Shown here: positions 44,999 through 50,714 of the stretch, piece after piece | Layout: each line of letters begins with the position of its first letter | Position numbering within the stretch: the first letter of the stretch is position 1 | Assembly: GCF_003052295.1 (NCBI RefSeq) | Contig: NZ_QBLC01000001.1 | Coordinates: forward strand, 124,001 to 188,000 | Direction: 5' to 3' | Length of the DNA: 64,000 bases | DNA from: Trichococcus paludicola | Lineage (GTDB): Bacteria > Bacillota > Bacilli > Lactobacillales > Aerococcaceae | Notes under the pieces: generated by a model | Told to the model about the DNA's origin: nothing | The model's database searches: none | The model's input: only the letters and a program-made list of their open reading frames with translations | Program-made: the position numbers and the translations under genes

Positions 44999-45070
44999 TG
45001 GTCCCTACTGGGATTGAACCAGCGACCCCTACCATGTCAAGGTAGTGCTCTCCCGCTGAGCTAAGGAACC
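44999..45070 (-). tRNA. tRNA-Val (GAC)
   Basis: The minus strand folds into a 72-base cloverleaf: acceptor GGTTCCT with AGGGACC, D arm GCTC/GAGC, anticodon stem CTACC/GGTAG with loop TTGACAT, and T arm GCTGG-TTCAATC-CCAGT. The anticodon is GAC. The discriminator A is followed by TCA, so the CCA end is not encoded and must be added. It is a solitary tRNA gene with its own terminator. Confidence 0.96.
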
Positions 45071-46987: not shown

Positions 46988-49441
46988 ATGGACCATATCA
47001 GCATCATCGGCGCAAAGGAAGGGAATCTGAAGAACATCACCGTGGATTTGCCCCGGAATAAATGGATTGTCCTTACAGGGGTATCCGGTTCCGGGAAAAC
47101 GACGCTGGCGATGGATGTGCTCTATCAGGAATGCCAGCGCCAATATCTGGAAGCAATCGGCTACCAAGGAATCCGCAAACCGAACATTGATGCGATCCGC
47201 AATGTATCTCCCGCTATCCAAATTCAGCAACAGGACTACAATAAAAATCCGCGTTCGACGGTGGGGACGGTCACGGACATCTATACCGATCTGCGAATGC
47301 TGTTCGAGAAGCTAAGTTCCAGACACTGCCCGGCTTGCGGTAAGAAAATCAGTTCGGCCGATTGTCGTGAGGAAACCGAAAAGAGCGCCGATGACTTCAG
47401 GGTGTTCCAGTATTGCCCGCACTGCGATCAGCGGATAGAGAAGCTGACCCGCACCCATTTTTCCTACAATACCCGAGAAGGTGCTTGCGCAACTTGCCTG
47501 GGTTTGGGGGAAACGTTGACGATCGATGAGAAGCGGGTGCTCCATGAAGAACTTTCACTTGAAGAGGGTGCAGTCGTTTTTTGGGAAAAACGTTACCGGG
47601 ATTATCAGCTGGAGTCGTTCTATGCTGCATGTGACCATTACGGCATGCGGCTAAAGATAAATACACCAGTGAAAGACTTTATACCGGCGCAGCACGTACT
47701 GCTGCTGCAGGGGGCCGAGAGTGAAGAAATGCATCGGCTGTTCCCAGATGTGCCGGTGCCCCGAACGGTTGCGGAAGGCCGCTTTGAAGGGGTGTTGCCG
47801 AACCTTTGGCGCAGAATGGCGGAAAAAAAAGGGGCTTCGAAACTCCGGGAGAACTATTTTGAATCTGTCATCTGCCCGGAATGCCATGGGGAACGGCTGA
47901 ACGAGCTGAGCAGGAGCGTGACGGTTAACGGGACGCGCTTGCCTGAACTGTCCGGGTCATCATTGAAAGAGCTTATGGATTGGATCAGCGGACTTGATGC
48001 AAACCTGATGCATTCGGAACAACTGTTGGCGGGGGTCTATGTGACGGATCTGAAGACCAAACTGAAACGGATCCTGAAGCTGGGATTGGGCTACCTGTCG
48101 CTCGACAGGCAGACGATGACGCTTTCGGGAGGGGAAGCGCAACGGCTGCGCTTGGCGGCGGTCCTCGATTCGGATCTGACGGGTGTCATCTACATCCTGG
48201 ATGAACCGACAATCAGTCTGCATCCAAAAGATACAGAAGGGCTCCTGACTGTGCTGCGGTCGCTGAGGGATAAAGGGAATACGGTGCTCGTCATCGAACA
48301 TGACACAGCCGTCATGGAAGCCGCGGACTACCTCATCGATATCGGTCCGGGAGCGGGGAAATACGGGGGCGAAGTCATCGGGTCAGGAACGCTGCAGCAA
48401 ATCAAGGGACAAGCGACATCCGTCACCGGTGCTTATCTGAACAGCAAGCCGGAACCGCGCGAAATTTTCCGTAAAGGATCGGGTGCCTTCATCGAGGTGA
48501 GGCAAGCGGACAAGCATAACCTCCGGAATCTGACAGTCCGTTTCCCCGTCGGCAGCCTCATTTGTGTCACCGGTGTATCGGGTTCCGGGAAATCGACGCT
48601 CGTTTTCGATGTGCTGGCGAAAGGGGACACGGAAAAATCGCAGAATTTGAATCAGGTGAGCGGGACTGGCTCATTCGACCGGATCGTCATCGTGGAACAG
48701 GCACCCCTCACCCGAATGAAACGTTCGAATGTCGCGACCTACTCTGATGCCTATACGGAAATCCGGAAAATCTTCGGCCGGCAGCAGACGGCCGTTGAAA
48801 AAGGGATGACAGCCAATTATTTTTCCTTCAATGTGAAAGGGGGACGCTGCGATTACTGCGAAGGCTTGGGCGTCGTCACAAACAACCTGTTGTTTTTTGA
48901 AGATCAGGAAGTTCCTTGCCCTGTCTGTTCGGGCAGACGCTTCAAGGATGATGTTCTGTTCGTGACCTATCGTGGACATTCGATCACCGCTGTGCTGGGA
49001 ATGTCGGTGGAGGAAGGCGCGGAATTGTTTGCGGATTCCCCAAAAATCAGTGCCATCCTGAAGCTGCTGCAGGATGTCGGTCTCGGGTACCTTGAGCTCG
49101 GCCAGACGACAACGACTTTATCGGGCGGCGAAGCGCAACGGCTCAAGTTGGCCGTGGAACTCTTGGCAAATCAGGGGAAAAAGAATCTGTATCTGATTGA
49201 TGAACCGACTACCGGCCTGCATCCGCTCGATGTCGAGAAGTTCCTGGTATTATTGGATCGGATGGTCGATTCCGGCAGCACGGTGGTCGTTGTGGAACAC
49301 AATCAGCAAATCATCGGAGCCGCGGATTGGATCATCGACCTTGGTCCGGGGGGCGGAGATGACGGTGGTAGAATCATTGCGGAAGGAACGCCATCCGACC
49401 TCCGGAAAAACCCGAATTCGGTGACCGGAAAATTCATATGA
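46988..49441 (+). CDS. UvrA2-like ABC ATPase (class II UvrA homologue)
   Basis: 817 residues, about 120 shorter than housekeeping UvrA. Two ABC ATPase halves occur, with Walker A GVSGSGKTT and GVSGSGKST and two LSGGEAQRL signatures. Zinc-finger Cys pairs appear as CPAC, CPHC, CATC, CPEC, CDYC and CPVC. The shortfall is mainly in the N-terminal part where UvrB binds, as in UvrA2 and drug-resistance DrrC-type proteins. It may bind damaged or drug-loaded DNA, acting outside the standard repair route. ATG 46988 follows GGGGAG. Confidence 0.9.
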   Translation: MDHISIIGAKEGNLKNITVDLPRNKWIVLTGVSGSGKTTLAMDVLYQECQRQYLEAIGYQGIRKPNIDAIRNVSPAIQIQQQDYNKNPRSTVGTVTDIYTDLRMLFEKLSSRHCPACGKKISSADCREETEKSADDFRVFQYCPHCDQRIEKLTRTHFSYNTREGACATCLGLGETLTIDEKRVLHEELSLEEGAVVFWEKRYRDYQLESFYAACDHYGMRLKINTPVKDFIPAQHVLLLQGAESEEMHRLFPDVPVPRTVAEGRFEGVLPNLWRRMAEKKGASKLRENYFESVICPECHGERLNELSRSVTVNGTRLPELSGSSLKELMDWISGLDANLMHSEQLLAGVYVTDLKTKLKRILKLGLGYLSLDRQTMTLSGGEAQRLRLAAVLDSDLTGVIYILDEPTISLHPKDTEGLLTVLRSLRDKGNTVLVIEHDTAVMEAADYLIDIGPGAGKYGGEVIGSGTLQQIKGQATSVTGAYLNSKPEPREIFRKGSGAFIEVRQADKHNLRNLTVRFPVGSLICVTGVSGSGKSTLVFDVLAKGDTEKSQNLNQVSGTGSFDRIVIVEQAPLTRMKRSNVATYSDAYTEIRKIFGRQQTAVEKGMTANYFSFNVKGGRCDYCEGLGVVTNNLLFFEDQEVPCPVCSGRRFKDDVLFVTYRGHSITAVLGMSVEEGAELFADSPKISAILKLLQDVGLGYLELGQTTTTLSGGEAQRLKLAVELLANQGKKNLYLIDEPTTGLHPLDVEKFLVLLDRMVDSGSTVVVVEHNQQIIGAADWIIDLGPGGGDDGGRIIAEGTPSDLRKNPNSVTGKFI

Positions 49442-49461: not shown

Positions 49462-49490
49462 TTGACAGATGCCGGGAAAATCGCTATCTT
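49462..49490 (+). promoter_or_regulatory. Strong sigma-A promoter for the leader-lysR unit
   Basis: TTGACA, 17-bp spacer, TATCTT. The expected start at about 49497 precedes the Cys-rich leader ORF by some 32 bases. Confidence 0.82.
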
Positions 49491-49528
49491 ATTAGAAAGC
49501 GATTAGGAAAAGAAGGGGAGGCAGAACC

Positions 49529-49630
49529 ATGCAGAAGATGATGTGTTGTATGTGCGGATGTAAGAAACATGCAGGAATATTCTTATCATCTTTTGATCTC
49601 CACAACCGGGCGTTTTTGCCCGCTCTGTAA
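49529..49630 (+). CDS. Cys-rich 33-residue leader peptide
   Basis: The ORF begins MQKMMCCMCGCKKHAG and ends FLPAL at TAA 49628-49630. GGGGAGG lies eight bases before ATG, as strong as at real genes here. Four of residues 6-11 are Cys and three of the first eight are Met. A terminator follows 66 bases after the stop, and a lysR gene after that. The bases TGCGGATG (49553-49560), covering a Cys and a Gly codon, are perfectly complementary to CATCCGCA at 49654-49661. This is the layout of a ribosome-mediated attenuator sensing cysteine. A metal-binding peptide is the alternative. Confidence 0.65.
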   Translation: MQKMMCCMCGCKKHAGIFLSSFDLHNRAFLPAL

Positions 49631-49695
49631 AGGGGATTATGGGGCAGATTGTGCATCCGCATCCAAGTGAAGCGCTGAAATGATGATGAATACTC

Positions 49696-49733
49696 GTGCA
49701 TGTGTGTTTTGTTGACGCGCATGCACTTTTTTT
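49696..49733 (+). terminator. Attenuator-type intrinsic terminator before lysR
   Basis: GTGCATGTG (49696-49704) pairs with CGCATGCAC (49718-49726), with one wobble, and is followed by seven T residues. It lies within the leader transcript, 49 bases before the lysR start, so transcription must read through it to reach the gene. Confidence 0.85.
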
Positions 49734-49781
49734 GTGGAAATGATGGGAACCCATCGGAAAATAGAGCGGGGTGGCAAAAAT

Positions 49782-50714
49782 ATGAATCTGCAACAATTGC
49801 GATATGTCATAACTGTGGCGAAATACGGCACTTTTCGGGAGGCCGCGAGGCAATTATATATGGCGCAATCCAGTCTGTCGTCAAGCATCAAAGATCTGGA
49901 GGAAGAATATGGCATTCAGATTTTCGAGCGTTCCAAAAAAGGGATTGAAATAACCAAAGAAGGGGCTATGCTTTTGGAATTCGCCGATCAGATCGTAGCC
50001 CAAGCGGACCAATTGGATTACCGTTATCTGTATGCGACCGAAAACAGGAGACTGTTTTCGGTTTCCAGTCAGCACTATGATTTTGCTTCGGAAGGGTTTG
50101 CCCGACTGGTTTCGGAAAAAAAGGAAGAATCGCTGAATTTCCGTTTCCTGGAGACGAGCACCTCGAAAGTGATGGAAGACGTGCGGGATGCCGTCAGCGA
50201 AGTCGGCTTCATCTATCTGAACGACTTCAATGGGAAAGTCATCAGGCAGCATCTCGACGCTTTTGACCTGAAATTCGATCCGCTGATCGCGTTCCAGCCG
50301 CATGTATTCCTCAGCGAGTTCCATCCGTTGGCGAAGCAGGAGAGAATTACGCAGGAGGAGCTCCATCCGTACCCCGTCATTTCATTCGATCAAAGTAAAA
50401 ATAGCACACTGCAACTGATGGAAGAGTCGATCCAAGTCGACCAAAATGCCCAGCGGATCAGTGCAAGCGACCGTGCGACCGTATTAAATCTGTTGTCAGT
50501 GACGAATGGATACTTGGTCGGTTCAGGTCTCTTGAAATCGAATACGCAGGATCATATTGTCGTGGTACCGATGGATGTCGATCAAAAAAACACCATCGGT
50601 TTCATCTATTCGAAAGTGCGGCCGCTCAGCACGATCTCCAAGCGCTACATGAAAATCGTAAGGGAATTGTTGGAGGGCGATCAACGTATTGAACTGACTT
50701 CTGCTGAAGAGTGA
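49782..50714 (+). CDS. LysR-family transcriptional regulator under a leader attenuator
   Basis: 310 residues. The N-terminus MNLQQLRYVITVAKYGTFREAARQLYMAQSSLSSSIKDLEEEYGIQIFERSKKG is close in style to streptococcal and lactococcal CmbR/MtaR-type sulfur regulators, which is inference from memory. The ligand domain follows with normal length. ATG 49782 is preceded by a weak GGGGTGG site; the frame back to 49734 starts inside the terminator and is rejected. Expression probably depends on the upstream leader. It has no obvious target operon next to it. Confidence 0.88.
   Translation: MNLQQLRYVITVAKYGTFREAARQLYMAQSSLSSSIKDLEEEYGIQIFERSKKGIEITKEGAMLLEFADQIVAQADQLDYRYLYATENRRLFSVSSQHYDFASEGFARLVSEKKEESLNFRFLETSTSKVMEDVRDAVSEVGFIYLNDFNGKVIRQHLDAFDLKFDPLIAFQPHVFLSEFHPLAKQERITQEELHPYPVISFDQSKNSTLQLMEESIQVDQNAQRISASDRATVLNLLSVTNGYLVGSGLLKSNTQDHIVVVPMDVDQKNTIGFIYSKVRPLSTISKRYMKIVRELLEGDQRIELTSAEE

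Follow-up and report, generated by a model that had tools for sequence, protein, structure and literature searches.

Upstream of a LysR-family regulator gene of Trichococcus paludicola, a short cysteine-rich ORF is followed by an intrinsic terminator, and the question arises whether this leader couples the transcription of lysR to the supply of cysteine. The locus is part of the window, a stretch of 64,000 nucleotides analyzed as a whole, from a genome assembly that is 63% complete. An earlier note on this DNA had described a promoter TTGACA-17-TATCTT, a 33-codon ORF starting with MQKMMCCMCGC behind a strong ribosome binding site, and an intrinsic terminator with seven T residues ahead of lysR. 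All three could be confirmed and belong to the following features:

49462-49490, + strand: sigma-70-type promoter TTGACA-17-TATCTT (TTGACA at 49462-49467, TATCTT at 49485-49490)
49514-49521, + strand: Shine-Dalgarno (SD) sequence AGGGGAGG of the leader ORF (from the sequence)
49529-49630, + strand: leader peptide ORF of 33 codons, MQKMMCCMCGCKKHAGIFLSSFDLHNRAFLPAL, opening with MQKMMCCMCGCKKHAG (ORF list, alignment)
49544-49561, + strand: candidate Cys control codons C C M C G C, codons 6-11 (alignment, folding with a modelled ribosome)
49532-49553, + strand: region 1, pairing with region 2 to an anti-antiterminator that encloses the Cys codons (folds)
49567-49595, + strand: region 2, ACAUGCAGGAAUAUUCUUAUCAUCUUUUG, pairing with region 1 in the anti-antiterminator and with region 3 in the antiterminator (folds)
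49682-49703, + strand: region 3, GAUGAUGAAUA...UGCAUGU, antiterminator partner of region 2 (folds)
49696-49733, + strand: intrinsic terminator with a 13 bp stem, a 5 nt loop and seven U (scan, folds, alignment)
49782-50714, + strand: LysR-family regulator gene (Pfam HTH_1 and LysR_substrate)

The terminator consists of a stem-loop at 49696-49726 followed by TTTTTTT at 49727-49733, and the lysR start codon (ATG, 49782) is located 48 nt past the T run. The start codon of the leader ORF lies 39 nt downstream of the -10 hexamer, with the SD sequence in between. Four Cys residues within codons 2-11 are expected by chance with a probability of about 7e-7 (Cys frequency 0.77%, from 38 long ORFs of the window), and the fold of the leader RNA is better than that of dinucleotide shuffles (z -2.5, 3 of 200 equally good). 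Consensus scans showed no excess over shuffled sequences, neither for promoters (5 found, mean 3.0, sd 1.9) nor for terminators (1 found, mean 3.0, sd 1.9). As these scans alone are non-significant, the promoter and the terminator are regarded as credible because of their conservation.

The lysR gene is present in 12 of the 13 Trichococcus genomes compared, the exception being an assembly of 51% completeness. The window LysR is 94-98% identical to its named orthologues, which come from Trichococcus species, and 79% identical to that of T. palustris; one further orthologue record, with 97% identity, is labelled Sedimentibacter sp. SX930. A comparison of the leader among relatives, named in the earlier note as a check, revealed that the Cys-rich head of the ORF is kept in all 12 loci, together with the purine-rich SD sequence and the terminator. 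The heads of the 12 orthologues contain 3-6 Cys codons each. According to the alignment, inspected by eye, the promoter hexamers are identical in 11 of the 12 loci, T. palustris excepted, and the SD sequence GGGGAGG is found in the same number, with GGGGAAG in T. palustris. The 11 main-type leaders, whose species are close relatives of each other, share the head M(Q/R)(K/M)MMCCM(C/G)GCKKHA with Cys codons at positions 6, 7, 9 and 11, of which codon 9 is Gly in one leader (T. collinsii). The pattern TGYTGYATGTGYNNNTGY, which misses the leaders of T. collinsii and T. palustris, has 14 matches in the 13 Trichococcus genomes; ten of these are the lysR leader and four lie out of frame within what, judged by eye, is a permease-like reading frame.

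The leader of T. palustris has diverged: MKKMMCCMCCMMC, reading MKKMMCCMCCMMCYVKHICTSV..., carries an in-frame insertion of 9 nt and a synonymous TGT-to-TGC change and has six Cys codons among the first 19. Its first nine codons are identical to those of the window at 24 of 27 positions when the insertion is left out, and at 67% when it is counted. Identity amounts to 75% in the 3' part of region 2, 54% in region 3 and the terminator, and 37% in the spacer.

The part of the ORF past codon 16 is poorly kept, and frameshifts lead to ORFs of 50 and 51 codons in T. patagoniensis and T. ilyis. As the head is conserved and the tail frameshifted, selection appears to preserve the head codons and the RNA rather than the whole peptide. 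This bears on a different explanation, namely a functional Cys-rich mini-protein (e.g., metal-binding) or an arrest peptide responding to metal or thiol stress, with the terminator ending its own transcript. The runs CCMCGC and CMCHH could conceivably bind metal. However, beyond codon 16 the sequence is not kept as a protein in these two of the 12 leaders, the leader ORF has no Pfam match up to an E value of 1, and the competing RNA folds described below would be left unexplained, so this explanation is considered most improbable. An overlapping ORF in the +1 frame (MQEYSYHLL...CPLCKGDYGADC...) was considered as a frameshifted zinc ribbon; it has no Pfam match up to E 1 and was dropped because indels break its frame in some relatives (alignment, by eye).

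Another genus of the family has a separate leader of this kind. In its genome G023, the LysR is 39% identical to that of the window, and the leader MANELISINEYAVAANMMCMCHHVLWRVIR (..NMMCMCHH..) forms a hairpin, AACAUGAUG...CAUCAUGUU, that encloses the Cys codons, plus an antiterminator-like helix. The terminator is GACUCGAUAA-UUUAU-UUAUCGGGUC followed by UUUUUG, and the antiterminator shares few bases with it. In G283, a genome of the genus of G023, a leader-like remnant adjoins the same M20 hydrolase gene with no LysR gene beside it; the LysR of this genome, 82% identical to that of G023, is encoded elsewhere and has no leader.

For a wider survey, 395 genomes of the order were searched with the leader-like pattern ATGATGTGYATGTGYCAYCAY, allowing up to two mismatches. 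In total, 15 genomes matched, G023 and G283 being the two with exact matches; at the other 13 loci no Cys leader ahead of a LysR gene was seen by eye. One of the LysR homologue searches feeding the survey had matches in 185 of the 395 genomes. Among 60 LysR-family loci, selected as higher-scoring homologues, a Cys-run leader was present in three (L001, L012, L017) and absent in 57, the LysR gene of G283 among them; the ten other main-type Trichococcus leaders are covered by the comparison within the genus. Four other Cys-containing short ORFs (L124, L122, L117, L027) were rejected for want of the leader anatomy, that of L124 being located within the upstream gene. The sequences preceding 20 paralogues and weaker homologues showed no such leader, and those preceding 11 cysK genes no Cys leader by eye.

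The window LysR contains the Pfam domains HTH_1 and LysR_substrate. No NCBIfam equivalog above its cut-off was among the matches listed (25 families), and a search against solved structures returned general LysR-type proteins only. In T. palustris, lysR is directly followed by cysK (TIGR01139, 438.5 bits, cut-off 350.95), the only such neighbour among 72 LysR loci compared. In G019, whose LysR is 46% identical, a cystathionine gamma-synthase-like (CGS-like) gene, with its best matches below the cut-offs, is located upstream, and downstream lies a gene of the sodium:dicarboxylate symporter family, the product of which we take to resemble a cystine symporter. A CGS-like and/or symporter-family gene lies within about 1.5 kb in 8 of the 72 loci (L013, L024, L086, L087, L091, L092, L093, L094), 6 of which come from a subset of 40. 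Genus g8, among the nearest relatives (LysR identity 46-50%), contributes 10 loci, and 6 of these are among the eight. Around the 11 main-type Trichococcus loci, neither cysK nor a CGS-like or symporter-family gene was found within about 1.5 kb. Because of these neighbours beside some of its relatives, the window LysR likely acts in sulphur metabolism and is probably a regulator of sulphur or cysteine metabolism. Three LysR regulons of lactic acid bacteria, CmbR, MtaR and HomR, are described as governing cysteine and methionine metabolism (PMC3616900).

Folding of the unmasked window leader resulted in pairing of region 1 (CAGAAGAUGAUG, UUGUAUGU) with region 2 (UAUCAUCUUUUG, ACAUGCAG), via 49532-49543 x 49584-49595 and 49546-49553 x 49567-49574, plus the 13 bp terminator. 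The competing antiterminator consists of ACAUGCA (49567-49573) x UGCAUGU (49697-49703), extended by UAUUCUUAUCAUC x GAUGAUGAAUA (49578-49590 x 49682-49692); just the 3' part of region 3 is contained in the left arm of the terminator. Minimum free energy folds of the RNA before the right arm were computed for six of the 12 Trichococcus leaders. With the 5' part removed, i.e., the RNA through 12 nt beyond the start of the first Cys codon, 20-26 antiterminator pairs formed in all six. With the 5' part kept, five of the six had no antiterminator pairs and 20-26 pairs between regions 1 and 2, and in L006 (T. collinsii) the antiterminator formed even then. In the complete transcript, the terminator formed in every leader folded, and the outer part of the antiterminator was found beside it, with 12-16 pairs in the main type and 7 in T. 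palustris. As UAUUCUUAUCAUC x GAUGAUGAAUA coexists with the terminator, only the 7 bp of ACAUGCA x UGCAUGU are exclusive in the main type. Since the terminator forms once the transcript is completed, antitermination would have to be kinetic and settled during transcription, as in classical attenuators.

The earlier note had also named co-varying stems as a check, and the antiterminator shows them: 96.8% of 216 cells are paired, with two pairs changed in a compensatory manner, a result as high in 1 of 500 shuffles; slid controls were paired to 7-49%. Both changes, GC to AU and CG to UA in the register of the window, are adjacent and confined to the lineage of T. palustris, whose best antiterminator duplex runs over 14 uninterrupted pairs in a shifted register. 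For the off-state structure (32 pairs, 384 cells), 97.4% of the cells are paired, but there is no double change, and each of the shuffles scores equally well. Duplexes between regions 2 and 3 were matched in strength by 0-15 of 500 dinucleotide shuffles in 13 of 13 leaders, and those between regions 1 and 2 by 0-12 of 500 in 12 of 13, T. ilyis reaching 83 of 500; for both tests the regions were picked after the folds had been seen.

The switch between a terminator and a readthrough form that the earlier note had proposed is supported by the competing folds and the kept Cys head, but the stems are different ones. The first proposed pairing, GTGCAT (49651-49656) with ATGCAC in the terminator's right arm, is present in the window, but complete in only 7 of the 12 Trichococcus leaders, with 5 of 6 pairs in three leaders and 4 of 6 in the remaining two, T. 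ilyis and T. palustris. Furthermore, a hairpin built with the right arm of the terminator would be followed by the U tract all the same, an unusual arrangement for an antiterminator. The second, TGCGGATG (49553-49560) with CATCCGCA (49654-49661), is complete in 9 of the 12 leaders and therefore fairly well kept within the genus (7 of 8 pairs in two leaders, 6 of 8 in T. palustris), but it does not appear in any of the four fold states of the five leaders covered by this check, L006 being excluded. ACAUGCA x UGCAUGU together with UAUUCUUAUCAUC x GAUGAUGAAUA is the better-supported antiterminator.

The effect of a translating ribosome was modelled by forbidding pairing beneath its footprint, with edges at +12, +15 and +18, and codons were called permissive at an antiterminator probability threshold of 0.6. 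In the window leader, this probability was 0.78-0.80 with the A-site at codons 2-9, 0.66 at codon 10, 0.32 at codon 11 and at most 0.02 at codons 12-24; past region 2 it was 0.79 at codons 27-28. Without a ribosome, the values were 0.70 for L006, 0.65 for the G023 leader, 0.55 for the window leader and 0.00-0.01 for L007, L011 and L012. A ribosome at the stop codon gave 0.53 for L006, 0.42 for the window leader and 0 for the remaining four of these leaders. For the window leader, folding alone yields no clean off state. The G023 leader stayed at 0.62-0.71 through codons 2-17, reached 0.78-0.79 at codons 18-20 (M, C, M) and then fell to 0.64 at Cys 21, 0.17 at codon 23 and 0 from codon 24.

The antiterminator formed with the modelled ribosome on at least two Cys codons in 11 of the 12 Trichococcus leaders. 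Cys 6 and 7 were permissive at all three edges in ten main-type leaders, T. ilyis excepted. In T. palustris the permissive Cys codons were 9 and 10 at +12, 7, 9 and 10 at +15, and 6, 7, 9 and 10 at +18; in the G023 leader they were 19 and 21 at +12 and +15 and 19 alone at +18. In T. ilyis (L011), no Cys codon was permissive at any edge, and among the first 20 codons only 2 and 3 were. At the +15 edge, the permissive stretch stops just after the Cys codons, and this placement at its end would fit the attenuator model. Most of the codons that precede the Cys run are likewise permissive, starting at codon 2 in Trichococcus and spanning codons 2-21 in the G023 leader; therefore, folding alone does not single out Cys as the signal.

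The same attenuator could instead sense methionine, or both sulphur amino acids, by stalling at the Met codons 4, 5 and 8. The heads contain Met as often as Cys (MQKMMCCM, MKKMMCCMCCMM, NMMCMC), all but one of the 12 Trichococcus leaders are permissive at codons 4 and 5 (+15 edge), and the CGS-like genes that adjoin LysR relatives belong to methionine or transsulphuration pathways. However, the tandem AUGAUG is part of stem 1 in either type of leader and may serve pairing, the insertion in T. palustris brings Cys besides Met, the neighbour in that species is cysK, and Met is a common residue (2.5%) whereas Cys is rare (0.8%). A methionine signal, alone or together with cysteine, is hence judged improbable, and cysteine is the likeliest one.

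Without any switch, the leader would be an ordinary 5' UTR in which a Cys-rich ORF occurs by chance and a terminator reduces lysR expression, all kept only through the closeness of the species. The relatedness of 11 of the 12 Trichococcus sequences, the non-significant promoter and terminator scans and the antiterminator favoured without a ribosome in some leaders would agree with this, but the diverged T. palustris retains the head and the pairings even though its spacer is 37% identical. The separate leader of the second genus, the chance level of four Cys in codons 2-11, and the duplexes and covariation that beat shuffles argue in the same direction, and such a passive leader appears very unlikely.

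Known RNA sensors were also considered for the lysR leader and rejected: at the gathering threshold, there is no match to the T-box model RF00230 in the window, and none in the leader to SAM or other riboswitches of Rfam 15. The only Rfam match across the window at this threshold is a tRNA at 44999-45070. The genome of the window has 19 T-box matches, of which 8 are above the cut-off and none is near 173.5 kb of the window's contig; given this number, the leader peptide represents a local alternative. In another family, the locus L024 (LysR 35% identical) has a T-box match of 92.2 bits (gathering threshold 93), and a co-directional CGS-like gene follows. T-boxes bind tRNA themselves and need no translated ORF, in contrast to the mechanism proposed for the Trichococcus leader. 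Lactobacilli are described as using Met and Cys T-boxes for sulphur genes, and these Lactobacillales T-boxes make transcription termination at sulphur amino acid genes depend on tRNA charging (PMC6004538), as the Trichococcus leader would.

Taken together, the leader is probably a ribosome-mediated transcription attenuator which monitors tRNA-Cys charging and thereby controls the amount of the LysR-type regulator. RNA polymerase would start at the promoter 49462-49490 and produce a leader carrying a well-translated ORF. With plentiful Cys-tRNA, the ribosome would pass codon 11, and region 2 would be covered or re-paired with region 1; with region 2 unavailable, the terminator at 49696-49733 would form and lysR would be off. 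If Cys-tRNA is short, the ribosome would pause on codons 6-9, mask region 1 and free region 2, which would pair with region 3, including the left arm of the terminator, before the right arm is synthesized, and readthrough into lysR would follow. The cysteine-codon attenuator of a Lactobacillales LysR gene put forward in the earlier note is in this form supported by the kept head, the version in a second genus, the competing folds and the sulphur-related neighbours of some LysR relatives, with the originally proposed pairings replaced by better ones.

Like trp/his-type attenuators, the Trichococcus leader has an SD-led ORF with candidate control codons, alternative 1:2, 2:3 and 3:4 pairings and an intrinsic terminator. 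The short ORF, conserved in its head in 12 of 12 loci, is predicted to be translated, the terminator precedes lysR, and the antiterminator, using the left arm of the terminator, is mutually exclusive with it (7 bp in the main type). The control codons here would be Cys codons, and the target would be a transcription regulator instead of a biosynthetic operon or a synthetase. Mycobacterial polycysteine sORFs, reportedly treated by Canestrari in 2020, are leaderless, unlike the Trichococcus ORF with its SD sequence and its start 39 nt past the -10 hexamer. Both are Cys-codon leader peptides, the mycobacterial ones being located before cysteine genes (PMC1262725, PMC13236596). The actinobacterial Cys leaders are described with Cys runs near the stop codon and without a conserved terminator hairpin (PMC1262725), and the polycysteine leader of M. 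smegmatis is described as translation attenuation (PMC13236596). In the whiB7 uORF attenuator of mycobacteria, ribosome stalling at a uORF likewise controls a transcription factor gene; it drives intrinsic antibiotic-resistance factors and is not described there as a Cys-codon leader (PMC13236596). The uORFC-8-2 motif, which precedes cysS in Rhodobacterales, resembles the Trichococcus leader in its tandem Cys codons in the first stem, its intrinsic terminator and the presumed stalling at scarce Cys-tRNA (PMC8632094). By its description, it differs in belonging to Alphaproteobacteria, in controlling a cysteinyl-tRNA synthetase gene and in the place of its Cys pair, in most cases positions 14 and 15 (PMC8632094).

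Attenuators of the trp/his type are described from Proteobacteria and Actinobacteria, with a predicted His leader in bacilli, and in the view given in 2010 no leader-peptide system had been shown beyond these two phyla except the ermC leader (PMC2965389). An ilv leader of S. aureus and predicted branched-chain leaders of Lactococcus and Streptococcus are also described (PMC5794164). Among the open-access papers listed by the literature searches, no Cys leader was seen, either from Lactobacillales or upstream of a LysR gene.

The mechanism, ribosome-mediated attenuation, is thus known, and the new aspect would be a Cys leader acting on a regulator gene in Lactobacillales. The chances appear about even that this is a Cys-specific attenuator in Firmicutes controlling the sulphur regulator itself, which has separately arisen or been rebuilt in two genera of one family, in a lineage that elsewhere relies on T-boxes for such sensing. 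It would establish a two-tier cascade, in which tRNA charging sets the dose of LysR and LysR then acts on its targets. If this is true, the level of the regulator would be tied to translation itself. The locus would also allow one to ask, in a natural setting, why a ribosome is employed by some leaders and a tRNA-binding RNA by others; the related LysR gene of another family (L024) carries a T-box match instead.

A co-directional UvrA-like gene is located immediately 5′ of the leader, and an ORF in the +1 frame overlaps the leader ORF.

Window 46988-49441, same strand as the leader: UvrA-like protein of 817 residues (TIGR00630, 857 bits vs. a cut-off of 729.8)
Window 49569-49670: +1 ORF overlapping the leader ORF, encoding CPLC and more Cys codons

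The best stretch of the TIGR00630 match starts only at model position ~240. The +1 ORF probably arose by chance, since a Pfam search with it gave no match and its frame is disrupted by indels in some relatives.

In G283, a genome from a second genus of the same family, a leader-like remnant (MMCMCHHAL) accompanied by a terminator-like sequence, as judged by eye, adjoins an M20 hydrolase gene, with no LysR gene at that place. The LysR gene of this genome is located at G283:C1:495969-496865 and has no leader.

L054 (G283:C1:444409-444429) and L081: remnant and LysR gene of G283
L012 (LysR locus) and G009:C20:106189-107115: two cysK copies of T. palustris

The proteins encoded by these cysK copies are 98% identical, and one copy is located immediately 3′ of the LysR gene. 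In the remaining Trichococcus genomes carrying the LysR gene, the cysK matches are found away from its locus.

A related LysR gene in another bacterial family (L024 in G042, 35% identical) has a T-box leader match of 92.2 bits, slightly under the gathering threshold of 93, and is followed downstream by a co-directional cystathionine gamma-synthase-like gene.

L024, 2447-2698 (minus strand): T-box (RF00230 match)
L024, 357-1418: cystathionine gamma-synthase-like gene

Read by eye, the T-box specifier looks like AUG (Met).
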